DNA from: Zhongshania sp.
Lineage (GTDB): Bacteria > Pseudomonadota > Gammaproteobacteria > Pseudomonadales > Spongiibacteraceae
Assembly (NCBI RefSeq): GCF_029212375.1
Contig: NZ_JARGNU010000013.1
Coordinates: 51,545-115,544 of the forward strand
DNA: 64,000 nt
Direction of reading: 5' to 3'
The notes under the pieces: model-generated
Databases searched by the model: none
What the model was told of the DNA's origin: nothing
Seen by the model: only the letters and a program-made list of their open reading frames with translations
Part shown: positions 26,038 through 42,016 of the stretch, piece after piece
Layout: the number at the start of each line of letters is the position of its first letter
Numbering within the stretch: the first letter of the stretch is position 1
Position numbers and translations under genes: made by a program

Positions 26038-26591
26038 TGGCCCGCCCCAAGCACCGGCAATTTGGCAATCAACGGCGCAAAATTCCGATCCCAAACCTTT
26101 TGTTCCAGCGCACCTTGATAGCGAAACCGAACAATGCCTTCGCCGTCGACCAAATAGGTTTCTGGCGCACCAGTCACCCCTAAATCGAGGCCAAAGCTGC
26201 CAGCCGCATCAAATATTGTCGCTTTATAGGGGTTGCCCTTCTCTGCCAACCAGCGCCTAGCGGCGGCGGCCTCATCTTTGTAGTCCACGCTATAAATAGT
26301 CACACCCTGCTCGGCGAGGCTTACAAGAAAGGGATGTTCGTAATGACAGGTCGGACACCACGTTGCCCACACATTGAGCAAAAACCACTCGCCTTGAATA
26401 TCGCTATTGGTGAGTATTCTGCCATCGTCTAAGGCTGGCAAAGAGAATACTGGCAAGGGCTGATTCAGCAGCGCAGAGGGCAAATCGGTGGGCGCGTAAT
26501 CACCACCTTGAATTTTACGCTCTACCCCAAAGAACACGGCCGCAAGGGCAACAAATACCAGTAGTGGAATAAATAATTTAAACCTTTGCAT
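26034..26591 (-). CDS. ccmG: Thiol:disulfide interchange protein CcmG/DsbE
   Basis: About 185 residues with an N-terminal anchor helix and a thioredoxin fold. The active site is WCPTC and the cis-proline loop reads TGAPETYLVD. It passes electrons to CcmH or apocytochrome c in the periplasm. Adjacent ATGs exist at 26594 and 26591; the second is better spaced from GGAG. The start overlaps ccmF. Confidence 0.95.
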   Translation of the reverse strand: MQRFKLFIPLLVFVALAAVFFGVERKIQGGDYAPTDLPSALLNQPLPVFSLPALDDGRILTNSDIQGEWFLLNVWATWCPTCHYEHPFLVSLAEQGVTIYSVDYKDEAAAARRWLAEKGNPYKATIFDAAGSFGLDLGVTGAPETYLVDGEGIVRFRYQGALEQKVWDRNFAPLIAKLPVLGAGQ

Positions 26592-28566
26592 CATTCACTC
26601 CTACCTCATTCACCCCAGCATCGCGGGGCGCGGCGCCGCGATAGCGTTTATCGCAGATTGCCAACAAACCGCCCAGCGCCATTAAAATAGCACCCAGCCA
26701 AATAAAGCGGATAAAGGGCTTAACATGAATACGCACCGCCCACGCATCGCTGCCCACCGGCTCGCCCAGAGCGATATACACATCGCGAAGCAAGCTGGCA
26801 TCAATTGCCGCCTCAGTCATAACTTGGCTACTGCGCGCGTGATACCGGCGCTTTTCAGGGTGCATTTCGGCAATAACTTCGCCATTTTCCCACAGCGAAA
26901 AACTGCCTCGCTGGCCCTGGTAATTTGGTCCGGTAATGGCTTGCACGCCATCAAAGCTCACTTCATAGCCTGAGCCCCCAGCGGCACGCTCGCCAACATG
27001 CATGCGAATATCGCGCTCGTCATTAAAGCTCACCACCATTGCCACGCCCAGCACACTGGCGGCAAAACCAATATGGGCGAGCAACATACCGTAATAGGAC
27101 GGGGTCAAGCGCCGTAAGCCTTTTAGCAACGACGGTGCATTGCGGGTTTTATTACGTAAATTGGCGAGACTGCTCAGCACGATCCACGCGGTGAGCAACA
27201 CCCCAATGGTGGCGCTGAACTGAAAATGACCGGCAAACCACGTTGGCAAAATCAGTGCGATTAGCACGCTGCTAAGAAAGGCCCCAAGCAGTGCCCGCCA
27301 CCAGCGTTGGGCGCTGGTGCGCTTCCACTGTGACGAGGGGCCAATGCCAACCAACAGCGCTAACAAACACATTAGCGGCACAAATATCGCGTTGAAATAC
27401 GGCGGCCCCACCGAGTATTTGCCAAGGCCCGCAAAGTCCATAATGAGCGGGAACAAGGTACCCAAGAGCACGGTCATTGCCGCGACTAAAAGCACAATAT
27501 TATTGGCTAGTAGTAGCGCTTCCCGCGACAGCCAACCAAAGCTCGGCGCAGAGCGGTTGGCGGGGGCCTTCAGGGCATATAAAGTGAGTGAGCCGCCCAC
27601 CACCAAAAACAAGAATGCCAGTATGAACATGCCCCGCGTGGGGTCGGCAGCAAACGCGTGTACCGAGGTTAATACCCCCGAGCGAACCAAGAATGTGCCG
27701 AGTAAACTCAGAGAGAAAGCAAAAATCGCCAACAATAAAGTCCAGCTTTTAAATACGCCGCGCTTCTCTGTTACGGCAAGCGAATGAATTAGCGCGGTGC
27801 CGACCAGCCACGGCATAAACGAGGCGTTTTCCACTGGGTCCCAAAACCACCAACCGCCCCAGCCCAGCTCGTAATACGCCCACCAACTGCCCAGCGCGAT
27901 ACCCACGGTTAAAAACAACCACGCGGTGTTCGTCCATGGCCGCGACCAGCGCGCCCAGCTGGCATCCATACGACCACTGAGCAACGCCGCAATAGCAAAG
28001 GCGAAGGCCACTGAAAAGCCAACATAGCCCACATAGAGCATCGGCGGATGAATCACCATGCCAGGGTCTTGCAAAAGGGGATTTAAATCTTGGCCGTCGC
28101 TGGGAATATTAAGTAAATGCCGAGCAAAGGGGTTTGAGGTAAACAGCGAGAAGCTAAAAAAGCCCACCGCAATCATGCCCATTACCGCCAATACGCGGGC
28201 GAGAATATCGCGGGGCAGTTGCCGAGAGAAAATTGCGACGGCCACCGTCCACAGGGTAAGGATTTCTAGCCACAGCAGCAGCGAACCTTCATGACCGCCC
28301 CACAGCGCGCTAAATTTATAGGCGGGCGGAAGCAGTGAATTAGACTGGGCCGCAACAATATCCACCGAAAAATCATCAGTCATAAAAGCGTAAACCAAGC
28401 AACCGGTTGCAATAGTGGTAAACACACACTGAGCAAAGCTGAGATGGCGCGCTGCGGCCATCGCCAATTGATCGCCTCGCTGCACGCCCCACAGCGGCAA
28501 AATAGCGAGTACTAAAGCAAAACAAAAACCCAGTATTAATGAAAAATGCCCTAGTTCGACTATCAC
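26578..28566 (-). CDS. ccmF: Cytochrome c haem lyase subunit CcmF
   Basis: 662 residues with about fifteen membrane helices. The WWD haem-handling motif ([19 protein letters not shown]) is intact. It attaches haem delivered by CcmE to apocytochrome c. It overlaps both ccmE and ccmG ends by a few bases. Confidence 0.97.
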
Positions 28567-29072
28567 AGGCCGGCCTTCTCTGCTGGTGCAGGGTCGTTTA
28601 TGTTTTGCTCAGCAGTGCTCGCGCCCTCCATGTCACGCTTGGCGGCAGAGTCTTCTAAGGCCGCGCTCACCTCCGGTGGCATATACTTTTCATCGTGTTT
28701 AGCCAAGACTTCGGTGGCGTAAAAAACGCCGTCTTCAGCCAATTTACCCGACACCACCACGCCCTCGCCCTCGGCAAACAAGTCGGGCAGAATGCCCTCG
28801 TATTCAACAGTCACTACCGCCGAGTAATCCGTTACCACAAAACGAATTTTCAAACTGTCGCTGGCCCGCTGCACGCTGCCTTTCTGCACCATACCGCCGG
28901 CGCGAATCGCTTTACCCACCGGCGCTTTGCCAGACACAATCTCGGCTGGGGGGTAGAACAAATTGATGTTTTCTTTCAGCGCATAGCCGAGTAAGCCGGC
29001 GGCTAAACCCGCGACCACCAAAATAAAAACAATAATCAAAAGACGCTGTTTGCGCTGGGGATGCATAGCCAT
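28563..29072 (-). CDS. ccmE: Cytochrome c maturation haem chaperone CcmE
   Basis: About 169 residues. An N-terminal membrane helix is followed by an OB-fold domain; the covalent haem histidine is in [13 protein letters not shown] start at 29072 gives [10 protein letters not shown] and has AAGAG upstream; a longer frame would overlap ccmD with no homology. The tail after the haem site is long and charged, as is often seen. Confidence 0.93.
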
Positions 29073-29079
29073 AATTTTT

Positions 29080-29268
29080 TTACTCTTTACCAGTACTTGC
29101 CTGCTTGCGACGCACCACAGTACGCACGGCTTGTTCGGCACTTTGGCGGCGACGGCGCGCCTCCCAAAGCAAGCCACCTAAGACCACAGCGGTCACGCCG
29201 TAGCAAAACCACACATAGGGTCCGTGGCCATCCATGGCCAAAAAATCGCCAAGGCTGTCAAAATACAT
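29080..29268 (-). CDS. ccmD: Haem exporter protein CcmD
   Basis: 62 residues: one membrane helix ([18 protein letters not shown]) followed by an Arg-rich cytoplasmic tail. CcmD releases holo-CcmE from CcmC. Size, topology and place between ccmC and ccmE identify it. Confidence 0.9.
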
Positions 29269-29294
29269 AATTTGTCTCCGTCACTTGTTCGCCA

Positions 29295-30056
29295 TCACTT
29301 TACACCCTGTTCCTGCACGCCACACACAAGGTCTTGCACCCAGCGGGTATTGCGTTCGCGGTCGAGAATTTCGGCGCGGGTAAACAACAGCATTGCCCAG
29401 GCAAAGAACAAGTACATCCCCGACAGCGTCGCCATCAGCGGCCGCAACATGCTCGGGTGAATTGTAGACTCACCTATAAAACGGATACTCGCGGGCTGGT
29501 GCAGGCTATACCACCATTCTACCGACCAATAAATAATCGGAATATTCACTGCGCCAACAATCACTAATACCGCACAGGCCTTAGCCGCCGCGTCGCGATT
29601 ATCAAAGGCTTGGTGCAGGGCCATTACACCCAAATACAAAAAAAATAAAATGAGTACTGAGGTAATTCGTGCGTCCCACACCCACCACGTACCCCAGGTA
29701 GGTTTGCCCCACACCGCGCCAGTAAGCAGCGCAAGAAACGTTAGCGAGGCGCCGATTGGCGCGATGGCCTTCATTACCATGGCCGCCAATTTCATGCGCC
29801 AAATCAAATGAATCGCGCCGGCTATGGCCATGGTCATATACGCGCCCATGGCCACTGCCGAGGCCGGCACATGAATATAAATAATCCGGAAGCTATTACC
29901 CTGTTTATAATCGGCGGGCACCAAGGCCAAGCCCCACACCGCCCCACCAATTAATAACAGCAGCGACAAGCCGGCCAAATACGGCAGCAAGCGACCACTA
30001 AACTGGTAAAACCAACGCGGCGAGCCCCATTTGTGAAACGTAGTCCAAATCGACAA
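29295..30056 (-). CDS. ccmC: Haem exporter protein CcmC
   Basis: 253 residues with six membrane helices and the tryptophan-rich motif WGTWWVWDARITS that presents haem to CcmE. It lies 82 bases after ccmB, a wider gap than elsewhere in the operon, with no clear promoter. Confidence 0.96.
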   Translation of the reverse strand: MSIWTTFHKWGSPRWFYQFSGRLLPYLAGLSLLLLIGGAVWGLALVPADYKQGNSFRIIYIHVPASAVAMGAYMTMAIAGAIHLIWRMKLAAMVMKAIAPIGASLTFLALLTGAVWGKPTWGTWWVWDARITSVLILFFLYLGVMALHQAFDNRDAAAKACAVLVIVGAVNIPIIYWSVEWWYSLHQPASIRFIGESTIHPSMLRPLMATLSGMYLFFAWAMLLFTRAEILDRERNTRWVQDLVCGVQEQGVK

Positions 30057-30138
30057 AACTCTTCTCTCTCTTCGCTAAAGCCAAGTGGCTGCCAGCTAAA
30101 TAATCACCGCGCGGCAGTATATCAGAAGCCCTGCGCAA

Positions 30139-30828
30139 CTATTGGTCGACACTAATCCGCAGCGCGCCGCATATTGCCAGCGGCGCCAGCGCCAGTGCCA
30201 GTAGAAAAAACACACCTAACATTGCCAACTGAGGAAGGTATGGCCCAGCCTCAACTGCGGCCTTAACGGCGCTACTGCCAAAGATCAGCACCGGAATATA
30301 CAGGGGTAAAATGATCAGTGACAATAATAAACCGCCTTTGCGCAGCCCCACCGTTAATGCCGCGCCAATCGCGCCAATAAAACTCAGCACCGCGCTGCCC
30401 AACGCCAAGCTCGCCATCAGCGCGCCCATCCCCGCCATCGGCAAATGCAGGAGCACGCCTAATAATGGCGACAACAAACTGAGGGGCAAGCCGCTTAATA
30501 GCCAATGCGCAATGGTTTTGGCAATAACTTGGGGGTAGAGAGGCTGATGACTTAACAACATTTGCTCGAGGGTCGCATCGTCGTAATCGCCGCGAAACAC
30601 ACTGTCGCTGGCCAATAGCGAAGCCAATAGCGCAACTACCCATAAAATACCTGGCGCCAATTCGGCCAAACGCTCGGGCTGGGGGCCAATGCCGAGTGGG
30701 AACAGCGCGCAGACCATGATGAAGAATACCAGCGGATTAGACCACTCACTGCCGCGCCGCGCCGCCGCACTCAGGTCTCTGCGCAAAACCGCTACAACTA
30801 AACTAGACACGCCTGCAGAGGCCATCAA
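30139..30828 (-). CDS. ccmB: Haem exporter protein CcmB
   Basis: 229 residues with six predicted helices, the membrane partner of CcmA in an ABC complex that drives release of haem-loaded CcmE. Its start overlaps the ccmA stop by four bases (ATGA). Confidence 0.95.
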   Translation of the reverse strand: MMASAGVSSLVVAVLRRDLSAAARRGSEWSNPLVFFIMVCALFPLGIGPQPERLAELAPGILWVVALLASLLASDSVFRGDYDDATLEQMLLSHQPLYPQVIAKTIAHWLLSGLPLSLLSPLLGVLLHLPMAGMGALMASLALGSAVLSFIGAIGAALTVGLRKGGLLLSLIILPLYIPVLIFGSSAVKAAVEAGPYLPQLAMLGVFFLLALALAPLAICGALRISVDQ

Positions 30829-31454
30829 AACGCCCCCAAATCGATGACCCGCAGCGGACGCTGCATTGCCAAGGGGTGGTGGGTGGTTAATAACACCGCG
30901 CCACCAGCGTTGGCAAAATCACTGATCCAAAGCTCGATTTCAGCCACGCCGCGCTGATCAATGGCAGTAAAGGGTTCATCTAAGATCCACAATTGCGCGG
31001 GAATACAGAATAATCGCGCCAAATTAACCCGGCGCTGCTGGCCGGCAGACAGGCTGTAGCAAGGCTGCTGCTCAAACCCCTGCAAACCCACCTTGGTCAA
31101 GGCCTGAAAAATGGTTTCATCGCTTTGTTTTAGGCCGCGCAGCGCGCAGGACCAGCGTAAATTTTCAAGGGGGCTCAACGCCGCTTTAATACCTGCGCCG
31201 TGGCCAATATAGAGTAATTGCTCCAGATAGGCGGCGCGCTGCTGATCTAAGGAGTGCGACTGCCAAAAAATATCACCCTCATAACGACTGGAGAGACCGG
31301 CTAAAATTCTGAGTAGGCTGGTTTTACCACTGCCATTGGGGCCGGCAATTTGCAGCACGTCCCCAGCATTTAATGTAAAGCACAGGTCGGCAAACAGCAC
31401 GCGGTCATCCCGCTCACTGTAGAGCTGCCTTACCTCCAACCCCTGTTCTGCCAA
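30825..31454 (-). CDS. ccmA: Cytochrome c biogenesis ATP-binding protein CcmA
   Basis: About 209 residues from a TTG at 31454, with GGGAG five bases upstream. Walker A is GPNGSGKTS, the signature is YSLSAGQQRRVNLARL and Walker B is LWILDEPF. An in-frame ATG at 31568 would add 38 residues unlike the family; the short form equals the normal CcmA length, so I prefer it. First gene of the ccm operon, directly downstream of the flagellar/chemotaxis-remnant genes, as ccmA follows the chemotaxis genes in Pseudomonas. Confidence 0.93.
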   Translation of the reverse strand: MAEQGLEVRQLYSERDDRVLFADLCFTLNAGDVLQIAGPNGSGKTSLLRILAGLSSRYEGDIFWQSHSLDQQRAAYLEQLLYIGHGAGIKAALSPLENLRWSCALRGLKQSDETIFQALTKVGLQGFEQQPCYSLSAGQQRRVNLARLFCIPAQLWILDEPFTAIDQRGVAEIELWISDFANAGGAVLLTTHHPLAMQRPLRVIDLGAF

Positions 31455-31610
31455 AATCACTCCCGTTAGCGACTGCCAATAGCCAGCCTCAGCATCAATT
31501 AAAACGCCGCCAAGTATATACGAAGCAGAGGGGAAATTAGCGTCAAAAAGTAGATTAGCCCGACTCAAAATGCAGTTATTAGCCGGTGGCGCGCACTGGT
31601 TTTAGCTGAC

Positions 31611-32471
31611 CTACTTGCGCCCAGCCAGCCAAGCTTCCATATCTTGGGTAACCAAATCGAGGTACGACAGCGCTTTGTCCAACTCGGCACTTTGCTCAAG
31701 CCCTTGGAAACGCAGCAAACGATTGCGCACCCAGCTCAGCTCCTGAACCAAATTATCAATATTGCCTTCGTCATTGCTAGACCGCGCCACAGCACTGCGC
31801 TGCAGCGGACGCACTACCGCCTCAAGAGCAAGTTCGCCGGCATCTGCCGAGTGCACCCTGCTATCCGGCCGCGGCGTTGGCCCGCGGCCCTTGCCGTAGA
31901 GGCTGTCGAGTAGGTTTTCAAATTCGTCATCTGTAATCTGCCCGTCGGCCTCAGGCTTAGCCCCCGCAAGGTCTCGATCAGCTACACGCTCAGGCTTACG
32001 CGGCTGTAAACGGCCGTCGAAAAACAGCCCCATTGAATCTACCGACGGGCGTGTCGCTGGCGCCGCATTATCTGCTTTATAGCCCTCTTCTGCCGCGCGC
32101 ATAAGCCGCAACTTTAAATTGGCACTGAGCGGCTCGGGGGGCTGGTGATTTATCCGCCGCGCCAGCATTACCTCAATAACTTCAACTGCGCTTAAGATTA
32201 AGGAAACCGCGCTGGGGCTCAAGGACAAGCGCCGAGTTCGCAGGCGCTCCATTAACCGTTCAGACAGCTGGGCACACTCTGCCAGCTCGCTTAACTCAAG
32301 TACCGCAGCGCCGCCATATAAGGTGTGGAAACCGCGATGAATGTCGTCGAGGATGCGCTGACCGTCATAGCCATAATGCAATTCAGCCAATTGCTCGGAA
32401 AGGCGCTGGACAATTTCTTCGGCTTCCGCCAAAAAAATCGCCAAAATCCCTTCATGTTCGTTTCTGTTCAC
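31611..32471 (-). CDS. Truncated CheA-like protein (Hpt plus partial dimerisation region, no kinase)
   Basis: About 286 residues from a GTG at 32471 (an ATG at 32555 would add 28 unrelated residues). The first 120 residues match the CheA P1 phosphotransfer domain, with His49 in FHTLYGGA, where CheA has Lys in place of Tyr. A middle linker carries the CheA-like segment ITDDEFENLLDSLYGKG. The end, LVQELSWVRNRLL to ALSYLDLVTQDM, matches the start of the CheA P3 helices, then the protein stops. The ATPase (P4) and CheW-like (P5) domains are absent, so it cannot phosphorylate itself. It follows cheY in the flagellar-remnant cluster. Confidence 0.82.
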   Translation of the reverse strand: MNRNEHEGILAIFLAEAEEIVQRLSEQLAELHYGYDGQRILDDIHRGFHTLYGGAAVLELSELAECAQLSERLMERLRTRRLSLSPSAVSLILSAVEVIEVMLARRINHQPPEPLSANLKLRLMRAAEEGYKADNAAPATRPSVDSMGLFFDGRLQPRKPERVADRDLAGAKPEADGQITDDEFENLLDSLYGKGRGPTPRPDSRVHSADAGELALEAVVRPLQRSAVARSSNDEGNIDNLVQELSWVRNRLLRFQGLEQSAELDKALSYLDLVTQDMEAWLAGRK

Positions 32472-32594
32472 CGAGTTCTCACTACTGATTGCGCCACGCA
32501 GGCACTGGGAATATATTTTTATTATTATCTGAAAATACCGGCATCGGTACTGCAAGCTCGGTCACAAACCCAACAGATAGCGACTAAATTGTGC

Positions 32595-33074
32595 TTATTC
32601 GCCGCCAAGCCGGCTAAATATTCGCAGTATTTTACTTTCTAGCATCGCCGCGGTAAAAGGCTTAACAATATAGCCATTCACCCCCGCCTGAGCGGCTTCG
32701 ATGATTTGCTCGCGTTTAGCGTCGGCAGTAATAATCAAAACCGGAATATGACAAAGCTTGCGGTCGGCACGAATGGCGCGCAGCAGCTCCAAACCCGACA
32801 TATGAGGCATTAATAAATCGGTAATAACAAAATCAAAGTGCTGGTTATGTAGCATTGGCAAAGCAGCCAAGCCATCGTCGGCTTCGCTAATATAGCGATA
32901 ACCCAAATCACCCAGCAAATTGCGGATAATACGCCGCATGGTCGAAAAGTCCTCTACCACCAATATCCGCATCTCACTGCGCACGAACGTGTGGGTCGAT
33001 ACGGGGTCCTGCGCGTCGTGGCTATGATTAAACGGGTTGGGGGAGGATAAACCGTCTTTAAATTGATCGCTCAC
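32595..33074 (-). CDS. cheY: Chemotaxis response regulator CheY with N-terminal extension
   Basis: 159 residues. From residue 35 it is a close match to Pseudomonas CheY (MRILVVEDFSTMRRIIRNLL). Acidic pocket Glu41/Asp42, phospho-acceptor Asp86 (DFVITD), Thr116 and Lys138 (VKPF) are all present. The first 34 residues are extra and polar. The GTG start overlaps the fleN stop by four bases (GTGA), which supports it over the internal Met35. Expected role: phospho-dependent binding to FliM. Confidence 0.9.
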   Translation of the reverse strand: MSDQFKDGLSSPNPFNHSHDAQDPVSTHTFVRSEMRILVVEDFSTMRRIIRNLLGDLGYRYISEADDGLAALPMLHNQHFDFVITDLLMPHMSGLELLRAIRADRKLCHIPVLIITADAKREQIIEAAQAGVNGYIVKPFTAAMLESKILRIFSRLGGE

Positions 33075-33916
33075 GAATCCTGCTCCGCAGCGGCTGGCCG
33101 TAACGTATTGGCCGCCAGCAATTGCTCAACAAAAAACAATAAATGACCTTCAAGCCGATTAGGTAGTGGCCAGTCCAGAACTTTGGCGCTTAACTCGCGC
33201 AAAGCGCGTGCAGAACGGCTACTCGGCGCTGCGACCATAACCGGTGTGCGCTGGCGCACCGCATCGCGCAACTGTTGATCAAAGGGAATCGCGCCGGCAT
33301 AAATAAGCGCCACGTTAATAAACTGTCGGCACACGGTATTCAAGGACTCAAACAACTGTCGGCCCTCGCGCTCGTCGGCCACCATATTAGCTAAAACCCG
33401 AAAGCGGGTGCGACCAAAATCACGATTCAATAATTTAATCATCGCGTAGGCATCGGTCATCGACGTTGGCTCATTGCACACCACCAGCAACACCTCGTGC
33501 GCCGCGCTTACAAAATTAACAACAGAATCCGATATTCCCGCCGCGGTATCGACTATCAGCACATCAAGCTGATCGGCAATATCACTAAACGCGTGAATTA
33601 ATCCGGCGTGCTCCAAACTCGTCAGTTTGGTGAGCCGACGGGTACCCGACGAAGCGGGAATTACTTTAATACCCGCTGGCCCCGTTAACATTACATCCTG
33701 CAGTGAACAACTGCCCGCCAGTACATCTTCTATCGTTTTAGTGGTGTTTAATCCCAGTAACACATCAATATTAGCCAAACCAAAGTCGGCATCCAGTATT
33801 ACTACCCGCTTGCCCGCCTCGGCAAGGGCAACACTAAGGTTAATCGAAACATTGCTCTTGCCCACGCCGCCCTTGCCACCGCTTACCGCAATGACTTGTA
33901 TCGCCTTAGTGCTCAC
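33071..33916 (-). CDS. fleN: FleN/FlhG-type MinD-like ATPase
   Basis: 281 residues. The deviant Walker A is SGGKGGVGKS, followed by LDADFGLANIDVLLGL and VDTAAGISDSVVNFV, close to Pseudomonas FleN throughout. FleN limits flagellar number by antagonising the activator FleQ and, with FlhF, places flagella at the pole. The GTG at 33916 gives the proper N-terminus and overlaps the preceding stop. FlhF, its usual neighbour, is absent here. Confidence 0.93.
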   Translation of the reverse strand: MSTKAIQVIAVSGGKGGVGKSNVSINLSVALAEAGKRVVILDADFGLANIDVLLGLNTTKTIEDVLAGSCSLQDVMLTGPAGIKVIPASSGTRRLTKLTSLEHAGLIHAFSDIADQLDVLIVDTAAGISDSVVNFVSAAHEVLLVVCNEPTSMTDAYAMIKLLNRDFGRTRFRVLANMVADEREGRQLFESLNTVCRQFINVALIYAGAIPFDQQLRDAVRQRTPVMVAAPSSRSARALRELSAKVLDWPLPNRLEGHLLFFVEQLLAANTLRPAAAEQDS

Positions 33917-34466
33917 CCGAATGCGCCCCAGCGAGGTCGCGCTGCCGCCAAGGAAAGCCCGGCAATAATCGCGAATAATCGGCAATTTGTTCTGCGTTGC
34001 ACATACCCATAATTTTTTTGACCAAGCGCTGATCGATATCGTGTACATCTACGAGCAATACCAAGCGGCCGTCGTCTACATAAGACTGAAAGGCGCAGAG
34101 ATCTGGGTTATCTTCGGTCAAACCCACAAAGCCGCCTTCCCATGCACCAAAACACAAAAAACTGATTGGCAGCGAAAAATTGAGAATCGACCGCGCCAAG
34201 CCGTCTTCCAAGCCAAACGCAGAGGTAAAGATCAAAACTAATAAGCAGCCCAACATCAAGCCCCAAAAGCCACCACGCCACGCCCGACCCCACAAATTAC
34301 TGAGCAGCAATGCCGACGCTACCGGCACCCCCAAGCGCTGCACATCGGCAATATGTTTACTCACCACACGCCAGCGCCAACCGCTCAAGTGGGGCTGGTC
34401 TAACATATCGGCAATTTCACGCAATTGCGCCGGTGTTTTGCTGAGAAAAACCAAGCGATGCTTCAC
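33906..34466 (-). CDS. Two-helix membrane protein of unknown function in the switch-remnant operon
   Basis: 186 residues. Layout: a short alpha/beta start (HRLVFLSKTPAQLREIADML), two closely spaced membrane helices at about residues 60-85 and 92-115 (GGFWGLMLGCLLVLIF and LNFSLPISFLCFGAW), then a soluble tail with YVDDGRLVLLVDV. The layout recalls DUF1269-like proteins, but this is only a visual match. It overlaps the fleN start by eleven bases, so it is clearly co-translated with fleN. No function is proposed. Confidence 0.75.
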   Translation of the reverse strand: MKHRLVFLSKTPAQLREIADMLDQPHLSGWRWRVVSKHIADVQRLGVPVASALLLSNLWGRAWRGGFWGLMLGCLLVLIFTSAFGLEDGLARSILNFSLPISFLCFGAWEGGFVGLTEDNPDLCAFQSYVDDGRLVLLVDVHDIDQRLVKKIMGMCNAEQIADYSRLLPGFPWRQRDLAGAHSGEH

Positions 34467-34494
34467 GTCATTAACTCCGCACTCGTCCCTGCAT

Positions 34495-34926
34495 TCATCG
34501 CAATGACTGCAGCCGTTCAGCTGGGCTAACCACTTCGGTTAAACGGATACCGAGTTTATCTTCTACCACCACAACCTCGCCCCGCGCAATTAATGTCCCA
34601 TTAACTAAAACATCGAGGGGATCGCCCGCCTGGCGATCCAGCTCGACAATTGCGCCCTGGTGCAATTGCAGCAGTTCTCTAATCGGCATATCGGTGCCGC
34701 CCACCTCAAGGGTAATGCGCACAGGAATATCCAGCACCATTTCCAAATCCGGCGCGGCGGGACTGCGATCGCGTAACCGCCCGCTTGCATCTTGAAACGC
34801 CTCACGCTCCTGAAAAGCGCCGCTCTCTTTAAAAACACCAGCATCTTGAAAGGCATTGCGATCCGCGGCTTCTATCTCTTCCTTCAACGCACGACGCTGG
34901 CGACGCAGCTCTTCTTGATTATCCAT
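34495..34926 (-). CDS. fliN: Flagellar switch protein FliN-like, with N-terminal hexapeptide repeats
   Basis: 143 residues from the ATG at 34926 (AGG five bases upstream; a GTG at 34950 would add eight). Residues 62-135 form the SpoA domain (LDIPVRITLEVG, LHQGAIVELD, VNGTLIARGEVVVVEDKLGIRLTE). In front lies an unusual tandem repeat, residues 25-48: AFQDAG, VFKESG, AFQERE, AFQDAS. In flagella FliN forms the base of the C-ring. It is 42 bases after fliM. Confidence 0.92.
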   Translation of the reverse strand: MDNQEELRRQRRALKEEIEAADRNAFQDAGVFKESGAFQEREAFQDASGRLRDRSPAAPDLEMVLDIPVRITLEVGGTDMPIRELLQLHQGAIVELDRQAGDPLDVLVNGTLIARGEVVVVEDKLGIRLTEVVSPAERLQSLR

Positions 34927-34968
34927 AACACCTGTCCCTACCCCAATCACGCACTGCTCGTCGTGTCA

Positions 34969-35916
34969 TCATTCGATTATTTTCAATGCTAACTGACCAT
35001 TGGTTACACCTAGGCTCGCCTTGGCCATTGCAACGCCACCCGCTTTAAGCACCGAGCGCTGGGCGACACCCAAAGGAATAATGTCGCCCACCTTCATACT
35101 TGCCACGTCTCGCAGGCTAACGGTCGGCTCGGCAATCGTGCAACGCGTAGGCACCCGCAAATCCAGCACCGACTCTCGCAATGCCGCCTGCCAAACGGGA
35201 TCGTCTACGCCCTGGCCTGCCGACTCACTGTTAGCCAATATATCGCGCATCGGCTCGAGCATTGTTTGCGGCAGAGTAATATGAAACTCACCGCCACCGC
35301 CGCCTTCTAGCTCTATTTGAAAGCGGCACAATACGACGGTTTCGGCCTGCGCGGCAATCGCCGCCATCGCGGGATTAACTTCTACCCCAATAGCCTCGCA
35401 CTGCACTTCTGCCGCCAGCTGCCACGCCTTTTGATAATCACTGTGCGCGCGGTGAACCAAGCGCCCAATCACACGACGCTCCACCGGACTAAATTCGCGA
35501 CCATCTGCACTTCCCTGCGCACCGCTACCACCAAAAAACATATCAACCAAGCGAAACACCAAACGCGCATCAAACACCAACATAGCGGCGCCTTTAAAAG
35601 GATGCACACGCATTAAATTTAAACTGGTGGGTACGTAGAGGGAATGCAGGTATTCACTATAAGGTAAAAATTGCAGCTCTAGCGCAACAACATCTACGCC
35701 CTGCCCAAGAACATCAGAAATACTGTCGCGAAAGCGCTCAGCAAAGCGTTTATTAATTTGTTCTAAACCGGGTAAACGGCGCTTTTTAATTTGCTGGCGG
35801 CTAGCCAAATCAAAGCGTCGAGCTGGCACCACATCGCTGTCAGGACGCAAATCCTGAGTTTGGACATTAGCCAACAAGGCATCGATCTCGGCCTGTGAGA
35901 GTAAATCTTTCACCAT
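34969..35916 (-). CDS. fliM: Flagellar motor switch protein FliM
   Basis: About 315 residues. The N-terminal CheY-binding motif (LLSQAEIDALL) is intact. The CheC-like middle domain has FFGGSGAQG and REFSPVERRVIGRL; the C-terminal SpoA domain ends the protein. FliM links FliG to FliN and receives phospho-CheY. The ATG at 35916 is preferred to a GTG four codons earlier. A sigma-54-like promoter (35964-35979) and a FleQ-box-like site (36023-36036) lie upstream. Confidence 0.95.
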   Translation of the reverse strand: MVKDLLSQAEIDALLANVQTQDLRPDSDVVPARRFDLASRQQIKKRRLPGLEQINKRFAERFRDSISDVLGQGVDVVALELQFLPYSEYLHSLYVPTSLNLMRVHPFKGAAMLVFDARLVFRLVDMFFGGSGAQGSADGREFSPVERRVIGRLVHRAHSDYQKAWQLAAEVQCEAIGVEVNPAMAAIAAQAETVVLCRFQIELEGGGGGEFHITLPQTMLEPMRDILANSESAGQGVDDPVWQAALRESVLDLRVPTRCTIAEPTVSLRDVASMKVGDIIPLGVAQRSVLKAGGVAMAKASLGVTNGQLALKIIE

Positions 35917-35963
35917 CTGTAAGCGCACCGCGTAGCACTGAATGTGACTATTCGCTTATACAA

Positions 35964-35979
35964 TGCAAGGCCTGCGCCA
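35964..35979 (-). promoter_or_regulatory. Sigma-54-like promoter upstream of fliM
   Basis: On the minus strand: TGGCGCAGGCCTTGCA, that is, GG and GC at the required 10-base separation with TGGC and TTGCA cores of the -24/-12 consensus. It is 48 bases before the fliM start. Pseudomonas flagellar operons under FleQ use this promoter type. Confidence 0.6.
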
Positions 35980-36022
35980 ATATTTATTTTATAATAATCA
36001 GTCACTTACAAAATAAAACGCT

Positions 36023-36036
36023 GTCAAAAAAATGAC
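36023..36036. promoter_or_regulatory. FleQ-box-like site upstream of fliM
   Basis: GTCAAAAAAATGAC, matching the GTCA-N6-TGAC, A/T-centred form of the FleQ site known from Pseudomonas. It lies about 45 bases upstream of the sigma-54-like element. The reverse complement of a 15-base stretch here (36022-36036) recurs exactly upstream of the FliF-like gene (38223-38237). Confidence 0.6.
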
Positions 36037-36054
36037 GCGCTCCATTTTTTGCGG

Positions 36055-36396
36055 TCAGGGCTGCGCCAACCATTTATTAAGCGACGCCATCGCCTCTTCA
36101 AAACTGCGCACGGTATTACTCAGGTCCTGCTCAATACCAGAAAAACTGGCATCCCGACCCCGCAACTCCAAACCGCGAAACTGTTGGGACAAACTCACCG
36201 CGCCAAGCGTCGCCGCACCACCTTTTAAGCTGTGAGCCGCCAATCGCAGGGTTTCCGTGTCGCGATCATCTATCGCCCTTGCAAGAAGCTGTAGACGCTC
36301 CCGAGTATCAACCTCAAATTCATGAATCAGAATATGAACATCAGATTCCATAAATTCGCGCAGCTCATCCAATAAACTTAAGTCTAATGCTTCCAT
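36055..36396 (-). CDS. Histidine phosphotransfer (Hpt) domain protein
   Basis: 113 residues, a free-standing Hpt four-helix bundle. The phospho-accepting histidine is in AAHSLKGGAATLGA with the usual following Lys. Its place between fliG and fliM matches an Hpt gene in Pseudomonas flagellar loci that relays phosphate to biofilm/flagellar output (HptB type); equivalence is inferred. It may carry phosphate between an outside hybrid kinase and the CheY here. Confidence 0.87.
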   Translation of the reverse strand: MEALDLSLLDELREFMESDVHILIHEFEVDTRERLQLLARAIDDRDTETLRLAAHSLKGGAATLGAVSLSQQFRGLELRGRDASFSGIEQDLSNTVRSFEEAMASLNKWLAQP

Positions 36397-36458
36397 TGTT
36401 ATGACGTCCTTGTAAATATCGGCTTAACGCGGCGCACTCCGGTAACGGACGGTCTACG

Positions 36459-37469
36459 CTAGAACACATCTATTTTACGCGCATCCAGAATTATTTCACC
36501 CACGGCTGCCATCTGTTTGGCTACGCTCACAATTTCTGCGCGGGCAGACTCTCGCTCGGCGGGAGTGAAGCGCGGCTCAATTCCCGCAAGTGCCGCGCGT
36601 TTGTCGGCAGCCAAGCTCGCGAGCAAACGCGCACGCAAACCAGACTGCACGCCCAGCAACGCCGGCGCCAAAACCTCTGGCGCAAGCTGGCGCACCAATA
36701 CCGCCACATCGCGATCGGCCATGTTCATAATTTGCGCAAAGCCAAACATCAACTCCTCTACTCTGGCCGCACTTTCTGGCTGACTTGCCCGCAAGCCGTT
36801 AAGCAAAGCGCTCTCAGCACCCACATCCATCTCATTTAATAAATTCGCGGCCATCGTATCGCCCGATAACGCACGACCAACCGGGCGACCCAAATCATTA
36901 AAATATTGCTCTAACAGCCAATCTAGCTCTTCAAGCGCCGCAGGCGTCAGCGATTTAAGGCCCGACAAACGCCCTAATAAATCGACACGCTTTGCCTCAT
37001 CAAATTCCAGCAACACTTCGCTGGCCAACAGAGATTCAAGACACGCAATAACCACTGTTTGGATTTGCGGGTGCTCACGGCGAATTATGCCCGCTATGGT
37101 TGCCGCATCTAGCCACTTTAATTTAACAATATGCTTAGCCTGACCATGAAAGGCGAGACGGTCGCTTAACAGCTTCGCCCGCTCCTCGCCAAGCGCTTCT
37201 TCCAACAGCCCCAATACCGCATCGCTGGCGCTGGCCTTAACCCCCGAATAACGCTTAACGTCATTGTGAAAACGCTGCAGGATTGCTGCAAACTCGCGGC
37301 TATCGGGCGCCGACATGGTGGTCATCACCGCCGCCAAACGGTGTAAATCTCGCGGCGGCAAGGCCCGCATTACCGCCGCCGCATCGCGCTTATCTAACGA
37401 CATTAATAATGCTGCCGCCTGCTCGGCATTCGATAGCTCTGTTTCTGGCCCTGTTGCTAATGCTGTCAT
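36459..37469 (-). CDS. fliG: Flagellar motor switch protein FliG-like, lacking torque residues
   Basis: 336 residues with all FliG domains: FliF-binding N-terminus (NAEQAAALLMSLDK), middle domain with REHPQIQ (residues 131-137), armadillo linker, MFGF at 241-244, and a C-terminal domain ending GEIILDA. The charged helix that meets the stator (Lys264, Arg281, Asp288 and Asp289 in E. coli) reads here ALLGVQSGLRARLLASLA then KRAALAGIE, so by eye-alignment Lys264 becomes Leu and the Asp pair is lost. The ATG overlaps the stop of the FliF-like gene by one base. Confidence 0.9.
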   Translation of the reverse strand: MTALATGPETELSNAEQAAALLMSLDKRDAAAVMRALPPRDLHRLAAVMTTMSAPDSREFAAILQRFHNDVKRYSGVKASASDAVLGLLEEALGEERAKLLSDRLAFHGQAKHIVKLKWLDAATIAGIIRREHPQIQTVVIACLESLLASEVLLEFDEAKRVDLLGRLSGLKSLTPAALEELDWLLEQYFNDLGRPVGRALSGDTMAANLLNEMDVGAESALLNGLRASQPESAARVEELMFGFAQIMNMADRDVAVLVRQLAPEVLAPALLGVQSGLRARLLASLAADKRAALAGIEPRFTPAERESARAEIVSVAKQMAAVGEIILDARKIDVF

Positions 37470-38119
37470 TACTGCGTTTCACCATTTAACCAATCACTCA
37501 ACACCCCAGCTATGCGCACTGGCTCCTCGTTGGCAATGGTTTTCAAGGCCCGTAATTGCTCACGATAATCCTCAAACTGCTGGGCTTTGGCACGCCGGCG
37601 CCGACGCCCTGCGCGAGCAATCAGCAGTCCTATCGTCGCCAAAACCACCAAACCCAACCCCATAGCCGCCCGCCAAAACATCGACTGTTTAACGAGCATC
37701 GCCATGCCTATAGGGGCGCGGCTAAAGCTCCGAAACTGCAAAGTTACACGGTCGCCACGAGACTCTCGCAAGGCCAAGCCAGTCCATACCATCTCATGCA
37801 AGGCCTGACTAAGCGCCGCATCCACTTCGCCGCGGTTGATGAGTAAAAGCACATGCCGCGCCTGTGCAGCCGCCTCGTCAATAACCACCGATACTTTTAA
37901 ATCGCGCTCGGCAAGCAGGCTCGAGGCCAAATTAAGGGTTTGATCTTGAAGATAGGCCTCACGCTGACTTTGGTTATCTATTGGCTTAGTACGAAAGTAG
38001 TCGCCGCCCCCACTCAACTGCCACTGCCAGAGCGCCTGGCCAATCAAACCGGCGCCAAGCAAAAGCAGCGCGGTAAACACCGCGAACCACGGTTTGTTAG
38101 TCGATAAATTCTCACTCAC
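37469..38119 (-). CDS. Minimal FliF-like membrane protein (shortened MS-ring protein)
   Basis: 216 residues against roughly 550 in FliF. Helix 1 spans residues 11-31, a periplasmic piece of about 115 residues follows, helix 2 spans about 146-169, then RRRRR and a cytoplasmic tail. The tail (YREQLRALKTIANEEPVRIAGVLSDWL) resembles the FliG-binding C-terminus of FliF. The periplasmic part ends with LHEMVWTGLALRESRGDRVTLQF, like the last ring-building segment of FliF before helix 2. The first two ring-building motifs and the beta-collar are missing. It starts the cluster and is coupled to fliG. Confidence 0.75.
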   Translation of the reverse strand: MSENLSTNKPWFAVFTALLLLGAGLIGQALWQWQLSGGGDYFRTKPIDNQSQREAYLQDQTLNLASSLLAERDLKVSVVIDEAAAQARHVLLLINRGEVDAALSQALHEMVWTGLALRESRGDRVTLQFRSFSRAPIGMAMLVKQSMFWRAAMGLGLVVLATIGLLIARAGRRRRRAKAQQFEDYREQLRALKTIANEEPVRIAGVLSDWLNGETQ

Positions 38120-38438: not shown

Positions 38439-39341
38439 CTAATTTATTTGAGTTACTTCAATAAAGTCGCTGCGCGACGACAGCGGCTCAGGCACACCAC
38501 CAGAATCAATGGTCTGGCTAGAATCAAAGCCATACTCTTTGCGCTCGCCAGTGCGGTCAATAGTGAGGTTGGCAAAATCGAATAATTCGGTATCCGCCAT
38601 TTGTGATGGGGCAATGTTTTGCATAGACGAGAAAATTTTCTCAATGCGGCTGCCGTCAGCCTTTTCCCAATCCAGCAGCATTTTGCGTATATTCTGGCGC
38701 TGCAAATTCTCCTGTGAGCCACAGAGGTTACAGGGAATAATGGGGAATTCCTTGTACTCAGAAAAAGCTTCGATATCTGACTCGCGGCAGTAAGCTAGCG
38801 GCCGAATCACAATATTGCGTTTGTCGTCTGACAGCAGTTTGGGGGGCATACCCGACAGCCGCGAGCCGTAGAACATGTTCAAAAACAGGGTTTGCACAAT
38901 ATCGTCTTTGTGGTGACCCAGTGCAATTTTAGTCGCGCCGATTTCTTCCGCAAAGGCATACAAAGTGCCACGCCGCAAACGCGAACACAGCCCGCAGGTG
39001 GTTTTACCTTCAGGAATCTTTTGCTTAACAATCGAGTAGGTGTCTTTATTGACGATGTAATACTCAATGCCCAGCGCGTCAAGGTACTCAGGCAGAATAT
39101 GCTCGGGATAGAACGGCTGTTTCTGATCCATATTGACCGCCACCAGTTCAAACTTTACCGGCGCGCTCTTTTGCAGATTCATTAAAATATCCAGCATGGT
39201 ATAGCTGTCCTTGCCACCAGACAGGCACACCATCACCCGATCGCCCTCTTCGATCATTTTATAGTCTTCAATCGCCTGTCCCGCATGGCGGCGCAGGCGT
39301 TTTTGCAATTTATTGAACTCTAGCTTTGGCAAATTGGACAT
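38439..39341 (-). CDS. ttcA: tRNA 2-thiocytidine biosynthesis protein TtcA
   Basis: About 300 residues. The PP-loop ([11 protein letters not shown]) binds ATP and the CGLC and CNLC cysteine pairs hold the Fe-S cluster; it thiolates cytidine 32 of certain tRNAs. The ATG at 39341 (MSNLPKLEF) is the usual start, five codons inside a longer frame. Confidence 0.95.
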
Positions 39342-39492
39342 AGCACTTAAAATCAATCGGGGCTGGGGCTGCGCATTATATAGAAACCATGGATATGCGG
39401 CTACAAAGTAGCCAATGGAAAGACCAAGAAACCATATACACTACTCAGCGCGCCAATTAAAATCAGCCGAAAACCGGCGTTTTTAGCACTCA

Positions 39493-41536: not shown

Positions 41537-42016
41537 CTATGCTTTGGTTGATACCCGAGTAAAACCTGTTGCAAAATTCGCAGCAGGTTTATCCGGCTGC
41601 TGGCGCTGCAAGCTCCGAATACCAGCTTGCAGCCTCACCCGCAACTCCTCACGCCAGGCAGGTTTGGCTATAAAATCATCTGCACCGGAATCCATTGCTG
41701 CAATGAAATCCGCGCCAGCACTTTGGCCTGTTAGCATTATAAAATAAGGCCGCCCAAAGGTGGGGTCAGCGGCAATCCGCTGACACAAATCGAGACCATT
41801 CACACCGGGCATACGCCAGTCGCTTAGTACAATATCGACAAAATTCTTTTTGAGAAATCGTAGCGCCTCAGTCGCATTTTCGGCAGTAATAACGGCTAAA
41901 CCCATGCCCTGCAATACTGCATGTAAGCGCATACGCTCTACTTTGTTATCTTCTACAACCAAAACTTTGACCGCCCTGCCGTCAAGATGCATCGCTGTTT
42001 TCTCAAAAAACTCCAT
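41537..42016 (-). CDS. Single-domain response regulator
   Basis: 159 residues, one receiver domain (VKVLVVEDNKVERMRLH), with phospho-acceptor Asp in DIVLSDWRMPG, Thr in IMLTGQ and Lys in IAKPAW. There is no output domain; the last 30 residues are polar. No kinase is nearby, so the partner is unknown. It is not close to CheY in sequence. Confidence 0.87.
   Translation of the reverse strand: MEFFEKTAMHLDGRAVKVLVVEDNKVERMRLHAVLQGMGLAVITAENATEALRFLKKNFVDIVLSDWRMPGVNGLDLCQRIAADPTFGRPYFIMLTGQSAGADFIAAMDSGADDFIAKPAWREELRVRLQAGIRSLQRQQPDKPAANFATGFTRVSTKA

Follow-up and report, generated by a model that had tools for sequence, protein, structure and literature searches.

A reduced flagellar switch cluster beside a second flagellum in Zhongshania: a possible torque-less docking scaffold for CheY and FleN

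Introduction

What could a bacterium do with the rotor parts of a flagellum when none of the surrounding genes would let them build one? The question is raised by a block of nine minus-strand open reading frames (ORFs) at positions 31611-38119 of a 64,000-nt stretch of Zhongshania sp. DNA (contig NZ_JARGNU010000013.1), the whole of which is called the window here. The block encodes a short FliF-like protein (FliFs), the switch proteins FliG2, FliM2 and FliN2, a histidine phosphotransfer protein (Hpt1), a small membrane protein (X), the ATPase FleN2, the receiver CheY2 and a truncated CheA (HptC). In our reading, to which we give a probability of roughly 0.6, it is a reduced native flagellar cluster kept as a torque-less cytoplasmic ring (C-ring), which would serve as a docking scaffold for CheY and FleN and not as a motor. 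A preliminary description of the locus had listed the nine genes as adjacent, and all nine ORFs are indeed open.

Results

The flagellum of the same genome

The locus had been described as a switch complex without a flagellum, and this was wrong. Family searches found FlhA, FliP, FliR, FlhB, FliF, FliG, FliI, FliM, FliN, flagellin, FlhF, MotA and MotB in the same genome outside the block. The single FlhA lies on contig C18, followed by FlhF, FleN1 and FliA, the last two named by reading the sequence. Contig C1 carries flagellin-type proteins, FliF (551 amino acids, aa), FliG and FliI, with six rod/hook-type matches upstream at 196-204 kb; C2 carries FliM, FliN, FliP, FliR and FlhB, and C6 a MotA-MotB pair together with the only MotB_plug match of the genome. 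FliD, FliS/T, FleQ/FlrC-type proteins, FliH, FliJ, FliK, FliL and FliO, also named by reading, stand with the same primary flagellar genes. Every part searched for was found, and the primary flagellum encoded on C1, C2 and C18 plus MotAB is apparently complete, with intact torque motifs. Spongiibacter nanhainus CSC3.9 is reported to bear one flagellum and to carry a cluster of chemotaxis genes (PMC8805636), which agrees with a working primary flagellum in this group. The N-terminal docking motif of the primary FliM (FliM1, L041:18839-19831) has diverged to LDPEELEALM, and the protein stands far from the FliM of the order.

The absence of this machinery from the window itself was supported: FlhA, MotB, CheW and Flg_bb_rod matches were found only on other contigs (CheB and CheR, named along with them, were not searched for). 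Among the nine block genes Pfam detected no export apparatus, nor were the export gate and ATPase of a non-flagellar type III secretion system present, and the nine proteins gave no Pfam match to flagellin or rod families. The preliminary description had foreseen that a complete set elsewhere might make the block only a second copy. The set exists, but the block is not a mere copy of it, because genes for export, rod, hook, filament and stator are missing from it, the FliG torque motifs are lost in all 20 genomes that carry it, and its frames stay open, most of them with a low ratio of non-synonymous to synonymous substitution (dN/dS).

The only two CheW domains of the genome lie in one cluster on C7, with two receivers, a CheW protein, a methyl-accepting chemotaxis protein and a ChpA-like kinase that contains four Hpt stretches; a separate flagellar CheA/CheW was not found by the CheW-domain search of the genome. 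CheW matches numbered five in 12 of 18 genomes of the genus (including an ORF of 683-715 aa, the size of a CheA), three in G003 and G012, and two in G000, G001, G002 and G011. Since these counts vary, retention of the block does not follow the presence of flagellar chemotaxis. In G000 a flagellum is present, yet there are only two CheW-domain matches, forming a Pil-Chp-like cluster.

Loss of the torque motifs from FliG2

Identical patterns were applied to the block FliG2 and to the canonical FliG sets. The motifs NMSx[RK]A and [DE][DE][LMI]xxxGP occur in 0/20 FliG2 and in 20/20 distinct canonical or primary FliG (15 from the order and 5 primary); when K/R was demanded in the second motif, 19/20 of the latter still matched. 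EHPQ, which together with FGG of FliM we take to be a contact motif of the switch complex, is kept in 20/20 FliG2 and in all 40 FliG compared. The same is seen in the conservation of the torque segment, its borders chosen by us. Over the 12 separate FliG2 copies (the eight fused ones left out) it is 38% identical with 1/38 columns invariant, against 64% and 77% identity in the neighbouring segments. In the order FliG (n=15) the segment is the most conserved part, 77% identical with 19/42 columns invariant, and in the primary FliG (n=5) it is 72% identical with 23/42 invariant. The least conserved part of FliG2 is thus the most conserved part of the order FliG, which points to a loss of stator coupling. 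The lost motifs presumably fall on the stator-facing residues Asp289 and Arg281. MotA Arg90 and Glu98 are reported to act on FliG Asp289 and Arg281, respectively (PMC7564593). Judged by its sequence, a ring made by the block should deliver no torque.

A C-ring that still rotates, driven by MotAB or another proton channel and turning something besides a filament, is in our opinion extremely improbable. MotAB is available in the genome, and the C-terminal helices are still predicted in the low-confidence FliG2 model (mean predicted local distance difference test score, pLDDT, 65.6). Against rotation speak the disappearance of the stator-facing motifs from 20/20 copies, the unconserved segment around them, and a block (in G010) where no membrane helix was found.

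The whittled membrane part

The label FliF was given to the first block protein because its modelled fold and its C-terminal tail resemble those of canonical FliF. The window FliFs has two transmembrane (TM) helices, one RBM3-like domain (with a weak fold match) and a FliG-binding tail; in some relatives the domain is missing. With 216 aa, against 551 aa of FliF1, it has no match to PF01514, the YscJ_FliF domain (RBM1/RBM2), which FliF1 does have. Its match to PF08345 (FliF_C) is weak and under the cut-off (E=0.023, profile end 98-147). The model places an alpha-beta-beta-alpha-beta domain between the two TM helices (mean pLDDT 76.5, predicted template-modelling score 0.43). In a Foldseek search with this model, ranks 1-6 were Salmonella FliF chains; the best E was 2e-3 and none reached <=0.001, with target template-modelling scores of 0.29-0.47 and large root-mean-square deviations. 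The fold match is therefore weak as a model-based assignment, and rests on the agreement of the matches in family, not on their score.

FliFs is a separate gene in 12/20 genomes. In the other eight (G001, G004, G007, G010, G013, G014, G018 and G019) a FliF-type tail is fused N-terminally to FliG2, with one or two hydrophobic stretches before the tail in G001, G007 and G013. The tail was seen in 20/20 genomes, in G009 by a second pattern. Engineered FliF-FliG fusions are reported to assemble rings (PMC6079021), so the natural fusion is compatible with ring formation.

The same fusions bear on another explanation, which we consider improbable, namely that FliG2, FliM2 and FliN2 join the C-ring of the existing primary flagellum as minor subunits, modulating it as a brake, a clutch or a CheY adaptor. 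Each of the 20 block-bearing genomes has two FliG, and the docking motif has diverged in FliM1 while FliM2 keeps LSQAEIDALL. On the other side, FliG2 is fused to a FliF stub or tail in the eight genomes above and adjoins a tailed FliF gene in the other 12, which favours a separate ring, and FliG2 is only about 23% identical to FliG1.

Distribution and selection

The survey covered 96 genomes, the own genome and its relatives, 21 of them in the family of the window. A FliG match was present in 74/96; two FliG were found in 20 genomes, all in this family (20/21), and in 0/75 other genomes of the order. The exception within the family, G020, is 70% complete and showed no FliG match. FliG2, FliM2, FliN2, CheY2 and HptC have open frames in 20/20 block genomes; frameshifts in most relatives, a danger named in the preliminary description, were not seen. 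X is present in 18/20 (not found in G010 and G019). The part common to all 20 is the FliF tail, FliG, FliM, FliN, CheY and the CheA P1 domain. A scan of a contig collection with two HptC peptide patterns, which may omit the window's own record and may miss relatives, gave 10 loci, assigned to Zhongshania (6), Spongiibacter (3) and Neomelitea (1).

Substitution ratios were obtained by a simple counting method. Between G002 and G011, the genomes closest to the window genome in the block trees, seven of the nine block genes fell at dN/dS 0.032-0.081 (FliG2 0.060, Hpt1 0.081, FliM2 0.035, FliN2 0.047, X 0.063, FleN2 0.034, CheY2 0.032), and HptC at 0.122. In the same pair the primary genes FliF1, FliG1, FliH1, FliI1, FliJ1, FleQ1 and FlrC1 gave 0.019-0.10 and FliD1 0.187; no value was obtained for FliC1. 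Between G016 and G017 the values were 0.20 for FliFs, about 0.12 for X and HptC and 0.013-0.056 for the others; G013 against G014, with few changes, gave 0.025-0.29. The pair G006 and G016 was largely saturated and was not used.

Natural selection still seems to protect the block. That it is an old, functionless relic in the course of decay is a very unlikely explanation in our view. It would account for the loss of parts between genomes, the fast evolution of FliFs and the erosion of CheY2. It does not fit with five genes open in every block genome, nor with the dN/dS values: seven of the nine genes lie at 0.03-0.08, close to the range spanned by seven of the eight primary flagellar genes measured. 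Plain decay was rejected on this account.

Origin of the block

The genomes G076, G093 and G056, from other families of the order, carry a complete cluster of the order FliF-FliG-(FliH)-FliI-(FliJ) ... FliM-FliN ... FliP-FliR-FlhB-FlhA-FlhF-FleN-FliA-CheY-CheA, where brackets mark genes not detected in all three. The block order FliFs-FliG2-Hpt1-FliM2-FliN2-X-FleN2-CheY2-HptC-ccmABC is collinear with it, most parts being gone. Hpt1 too has a counterpart: in G076 and G093 an Hpt was matched in the interval from FliI/FliJ to FliM (there was no match in G056). In G047 the 60 kb examined contain the cluster as far as FliJ and, after it, an Hpt match, with FliM outside that stretch. Pseudomonas has a similar arrangement of flagellar and chemotaxis genes. 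On the downstream side, ccmA-B-C-F lies about 7 kb beyond CheA in the complete cluster of G056, and ttcA and ccmA flank the block in 15/15 relatives examined.

In the trees, the block's FliM and FleN fall together with the sequences of the three order genomes, and long branches set primary FliM1 and FleN1 apart. With support of 97/94 the primary FlhA is excluded from the clade that contains FlhA of the three order genomes; its closest neighbours are families of other orders, a placement weakly supported at 84/65. Its best matches among 369 genomes of the class are 63-65% identical and lie outside the order; to four sampled genomes of the order it is at most 60% identical where an identity was listed. 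These trees are to be read with some caution, the FliM, FleN and FlhA trees holding only three order sequences and the FliG and FliM trees having long branches and program warnings. Origin of the block from the native cluster is on this sequence evidence well supported, not proven; we read the whole as a reduction of that cluster in place, with acquisition of a second flagellum. The second flagellum was likely acquired by transfer, the alternative being an old duplication.

Putative docking and phosphorelay proteins

The FliM2 motif [LM]SQxE[IV]DALL is present in 20/20 copies and FGG in 19/20. FleN2, a MinD-type P-loop ATPase that groups with the FleN of the order, keeps GGKGGVGK[ST] and DTAAGI in 18/18 copies, and the Hpt1 His is likewise kept in 18/18. 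The window CheY2 has Glu-Asp at the pocket. HptC, correctly taken earlier for a CheA fragment, aligns with P1 and the first part of P3 of CheA and ends before the kinase; the P4 ATPase and the P5 CheW-like domain were not found, Hpt being its only Pfam match. A peptide in the HptC linker was considered as a hint of CheY docking and dropped as a general feature, the pattern being present in 4/17 genus copies checked. In monotrichous bacteria FlhG (FleN) is described as binding the FliM N-terminus and repressing FlrA/FleQ (review PMC12826062).

FleN2 also invites comparison with Campylobacter jejuni, where FlhG together with FliF, FliM and FliN (and FliG in the later paper) is reported to restrain polar division, and where C-ring proteins are reported to affect FlhG localisation and flagellar number (PMC3228812, PMC6946799). 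The block could by analogy be a polar landmark for division-site control, its ring gathering FleN2 at the pole and keeping FtsZ away, as proposed for C. jejuni FlhG. The retained set FliF-FliG-FliM-FliN-FlhG resembles that of C. jejuni (PMC3228812, PMC6946799), and FleN2 keeps its MinD-type ATPase motifs. We regard this as rather unlikely all the same: MinC is present in 17/18 genomes of the genus, so an ordinary Min system probably exists, and the sister-genus block, which retains the core, yielded no FleN2. G010 is the only one of the 18 without a MinC_C match, and it is at the same time the genome whose block FliG is preceded by no membrane helix.

Discussion

A retained switch as a proposed docking scaffold

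The block would be a reduced remnant of the gene cluster of the native polar flagellum, retained after a complete second flagellum had taken over swimming. The export, rod, hook, filament and stator genes would have been lost in this process, FliG would have lost the part that couples to the stator, and CheA its kinase; the identity and order of the remaining parts, the loss of the torque motifs and the conservation can be read directly from the sequences. The kept parts could build a membrane-bound C-ring, from a FliF stub (ring-building domain and FliG-binding tail) through FliG2 and FliM2 to FliN2. Such a ring without torque would most likely act as a multivalent docking platform, the EIDALL tails of FliM2 holding CheY2 and FleN2. 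CheY2 would be loaded through Hpt1 and HptC, and the state of this phosphorelay together with the assembly of the ring would set the amount of FleN2 and CheY2 at the membrane or the pole. FleN2 would then probably control flagellar gene regulation or number via FleQ/FlrA, or mark the pole. We infer the formation of the ring, the binding of CheY2 and FleN2 to it and the target of FleN2. A membrane ring used for signalling or polarity, and not as a motor, had already been proposed in the preliminary description; it is still the best reading, as an inferred one, while its premise of a genome without a flagellum fell.

Several observations weigh against the scaffold reading. With regard to the phosphorelay, the acceptor Asp of CheY2 (equivalent to Asp57) is found in 18/20 copies, G004 and G015 being the two that lack it; another residue, once Glu, stands for the second pocket Asp in 10/20 (G003, G004, G005, G006, G008, G009, G012, G015, G016 and G017); the Thr87 equivalent is replaced in G004, G012 and G015, and the His of HptC is lost in G004. 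A kinase feeding the Hpts was not identified, the only CheW-domain kinase of the genome being ChpA-like. With regard to the ring and its cargo, FleN2 and Hpt1 are present in 18/20 genomes and were not found in the sister-genus blocks of G018 and G019, which tells against FleN2 as an essential part; the G010 block has no membrane helix before FliG; and FliFs is fast-evolving (dN/dS 0.331, G002 against G011). The gap upstream of FliFs has no sigma-54-like promoter pattern, in the form that we presumed for it, and the window total of 8 compares with 7.6 expected. With regard to origin, four order FliG share 40-45% identity with FliG1 against 32-34% with FliG2; in the FliG tree FliG1 falls inside the FliG of the order and FliG2 on a long branch; and no ccm match turned up in the roughly 28 kb of G076 and 11 kb of G093 retrieved beyond CheA.

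The fuller statement is more tentative, and we would put it slightly below even odds: a retired flagellar rotor without torque or export, kept in about 20 sampled species as a membrane-associated ring (in one lineage perhaps cytoplasmic) of a new class that binds CheY and FleN, is read by a phosphorelay and stands beside a replacement flagellum. We file the block as a variant of the switch complex and not as a flagellum, because export apparatus, rod, hook and filament, and the FliG torque motifs were all looked for and found missing; the individual proteins are of known kinds. Among the titles and starts of abstracts listed by word searches of open-licence literature, none described a switch complex that is retained in the absence of export and torque.

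The locus may be regarded as a natural separation-of-function experiment, where a flagellar base was deprived of its torque, export and propeller in evolution and its switch remained. Should the ring form, selection maintains the C-ring for a job apart from motility. Mutants of C. jejuni are reported to suggest a role of the C-ring beyond motility, inseparable there from a working flagellum (PMC3228812, PMC6946799). The graded reduction of FliF down to a FliF-tail-FliG fusion would show which parts of the membrane/supramembrane ring (MS-ring) are dispensable for that job, and the question of C-ring roles besides turning becomes testable in culturable marine bacteria.

Gene content and flanks of the block

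The nine genes and their flanks are collected in Table 1. The likely true starts of FleN2, FliM2, FliN2 and HptC, later than those of the longest ORF, are our judgement from the starts in relatives.

Table 1. Genes of the block and of its flanks, with positions in the window.
Gene	Position	Strand	Description
FliFs	37469..38119	-	short FliF, 216 aa; TM helix 12-30, one ring-building-type domain, TM helix 150-168, C-terminal FliG-binding-type tail
FliG2	36459..37469	-	336 aa; all three domains (N, M, C) and EHPQ present; motifs of the torque helix lost
Hpt1	36055..36396	-	stand-alone histidine phosphotransfer protein
FliM2	34969..35928	-	N-terminal LSQAEIDALL (CheY/FlhG-type docking motif); likely start ~35916
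FliN2	34495..34950	-	FliN, above NCBIfam fliN cut-off; likely start ~34926
X	33906..34466	-	small membrane protein; no Pfam or NCBIfam name
FleN2/FlhG2	33071..34048	-	MinD-type ATPase; likely start ~33916
CheY2	32595..33074	-	CheY-type receiver; phospho-acceptor Asp86 (E. coli Asp57)
HptC	31611..32555	-	CheA cut short: P1 with its His, a linker containing one ITDDEFENLLDSLYGKG peptide, then the beginning of P3; likely start ~32471
ccmA, ccmB, ccmC, ccmF	26578..31568	-	NCBIfam; downstream-side flank, 15/15 relatives examined
ttcA	38439..39356	-	NCBIfam; upstream-side flank, 15/15 relatives examined

In the block Pfam assigned three FliG domains, named FliM and FliN, and recognised two Hpt proteins, a receiver domain and an ATPase of the ParA/MinD type. 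FliG_N, FliG_M, FliG_C, FliM and FliMN_C were over the cut-off, all three switch proteins having their domains. In NCBIfam, FliM2 and FliN2 were over the cut-offs and FliG2 under (132 of 227 bits). The TGA flagged in the FliM2 match we read as its natural stop, the protein match reaching the last residue. X, with no Pfam match and no NCBIfam family, was dropped as a marker of the block, as the small membrane proteins to which it is related form a common family without a name: its alignment matches 180/390 genomes of the order, and the window genome has a second match at C21:200099-200563.

A malate dehydrogenase gene lies on the ttcA side of the block. Beyond the upstream flank, at 41537-42016 of the window on the minus strand, there is a receiver-like ORF named by reading alone. 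The sigma-54-like promoter was rejected as a guide, the count in the window being near expectation, and a promoter and terminator scan of the window did no better than shuffles. At L041:5975-10233 on C2, near fliL-fliM-fliN, a tandem duplication comprises an outer-membrane-type protein and a thioredoxin-like gene (names by reading).

Comparison with known systems

The nearest likeness is to the complete clusters of the order (G056, G076, G093), which have the shared genes in the same order and, in G056, ccmABC-F downstream. The block differs from them in having no FliH, FliI, FliJ, FliP, FliR, FlhB, FlhA, FlhF, FliA or CheA kinase, a cut FliF and a FliG whose torque motifs are gone. FliF, FliG, FliM, FliN and FleN of the flagellum in the same genome are homologous to those of the block, whereas the lineage differs for FliM, FleN and FlhA. 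Engineered Salmonella rings (PMC6079021) share with 8/20 block genomes the fusion of FliF to FliG; the natural fusions, unlike the engineered ones, have dispensed with much or all of the periplasmic part of FliF. In C. jejuni, FlhG with the MS-ring and C-ring is reported as a similar subset of proteins acting beyond motility (PMC3228812, PMC6946799); that ring belongs to a working flagellum in a species without Min, whereas the block is separate and its genus mostly has MinC. The FlhG-FliM-FlrA/FleQ system described for monotrichous bacteria (PMC12826062) uses the FliM N-terminal motif and FlhG/FleN, both present in the block; the block, however, builds no flagellum, and for its proteins the interaction is a predicted one. 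Non-flagellar type III secretion and the hat-like inner-membrane structure described in PMC9380563 are, like the block, non-motility structures connected with flagellar proteins; these are secretion systems or linked to an export apparatus, whereas the block keeps the switch with no export gene at all.

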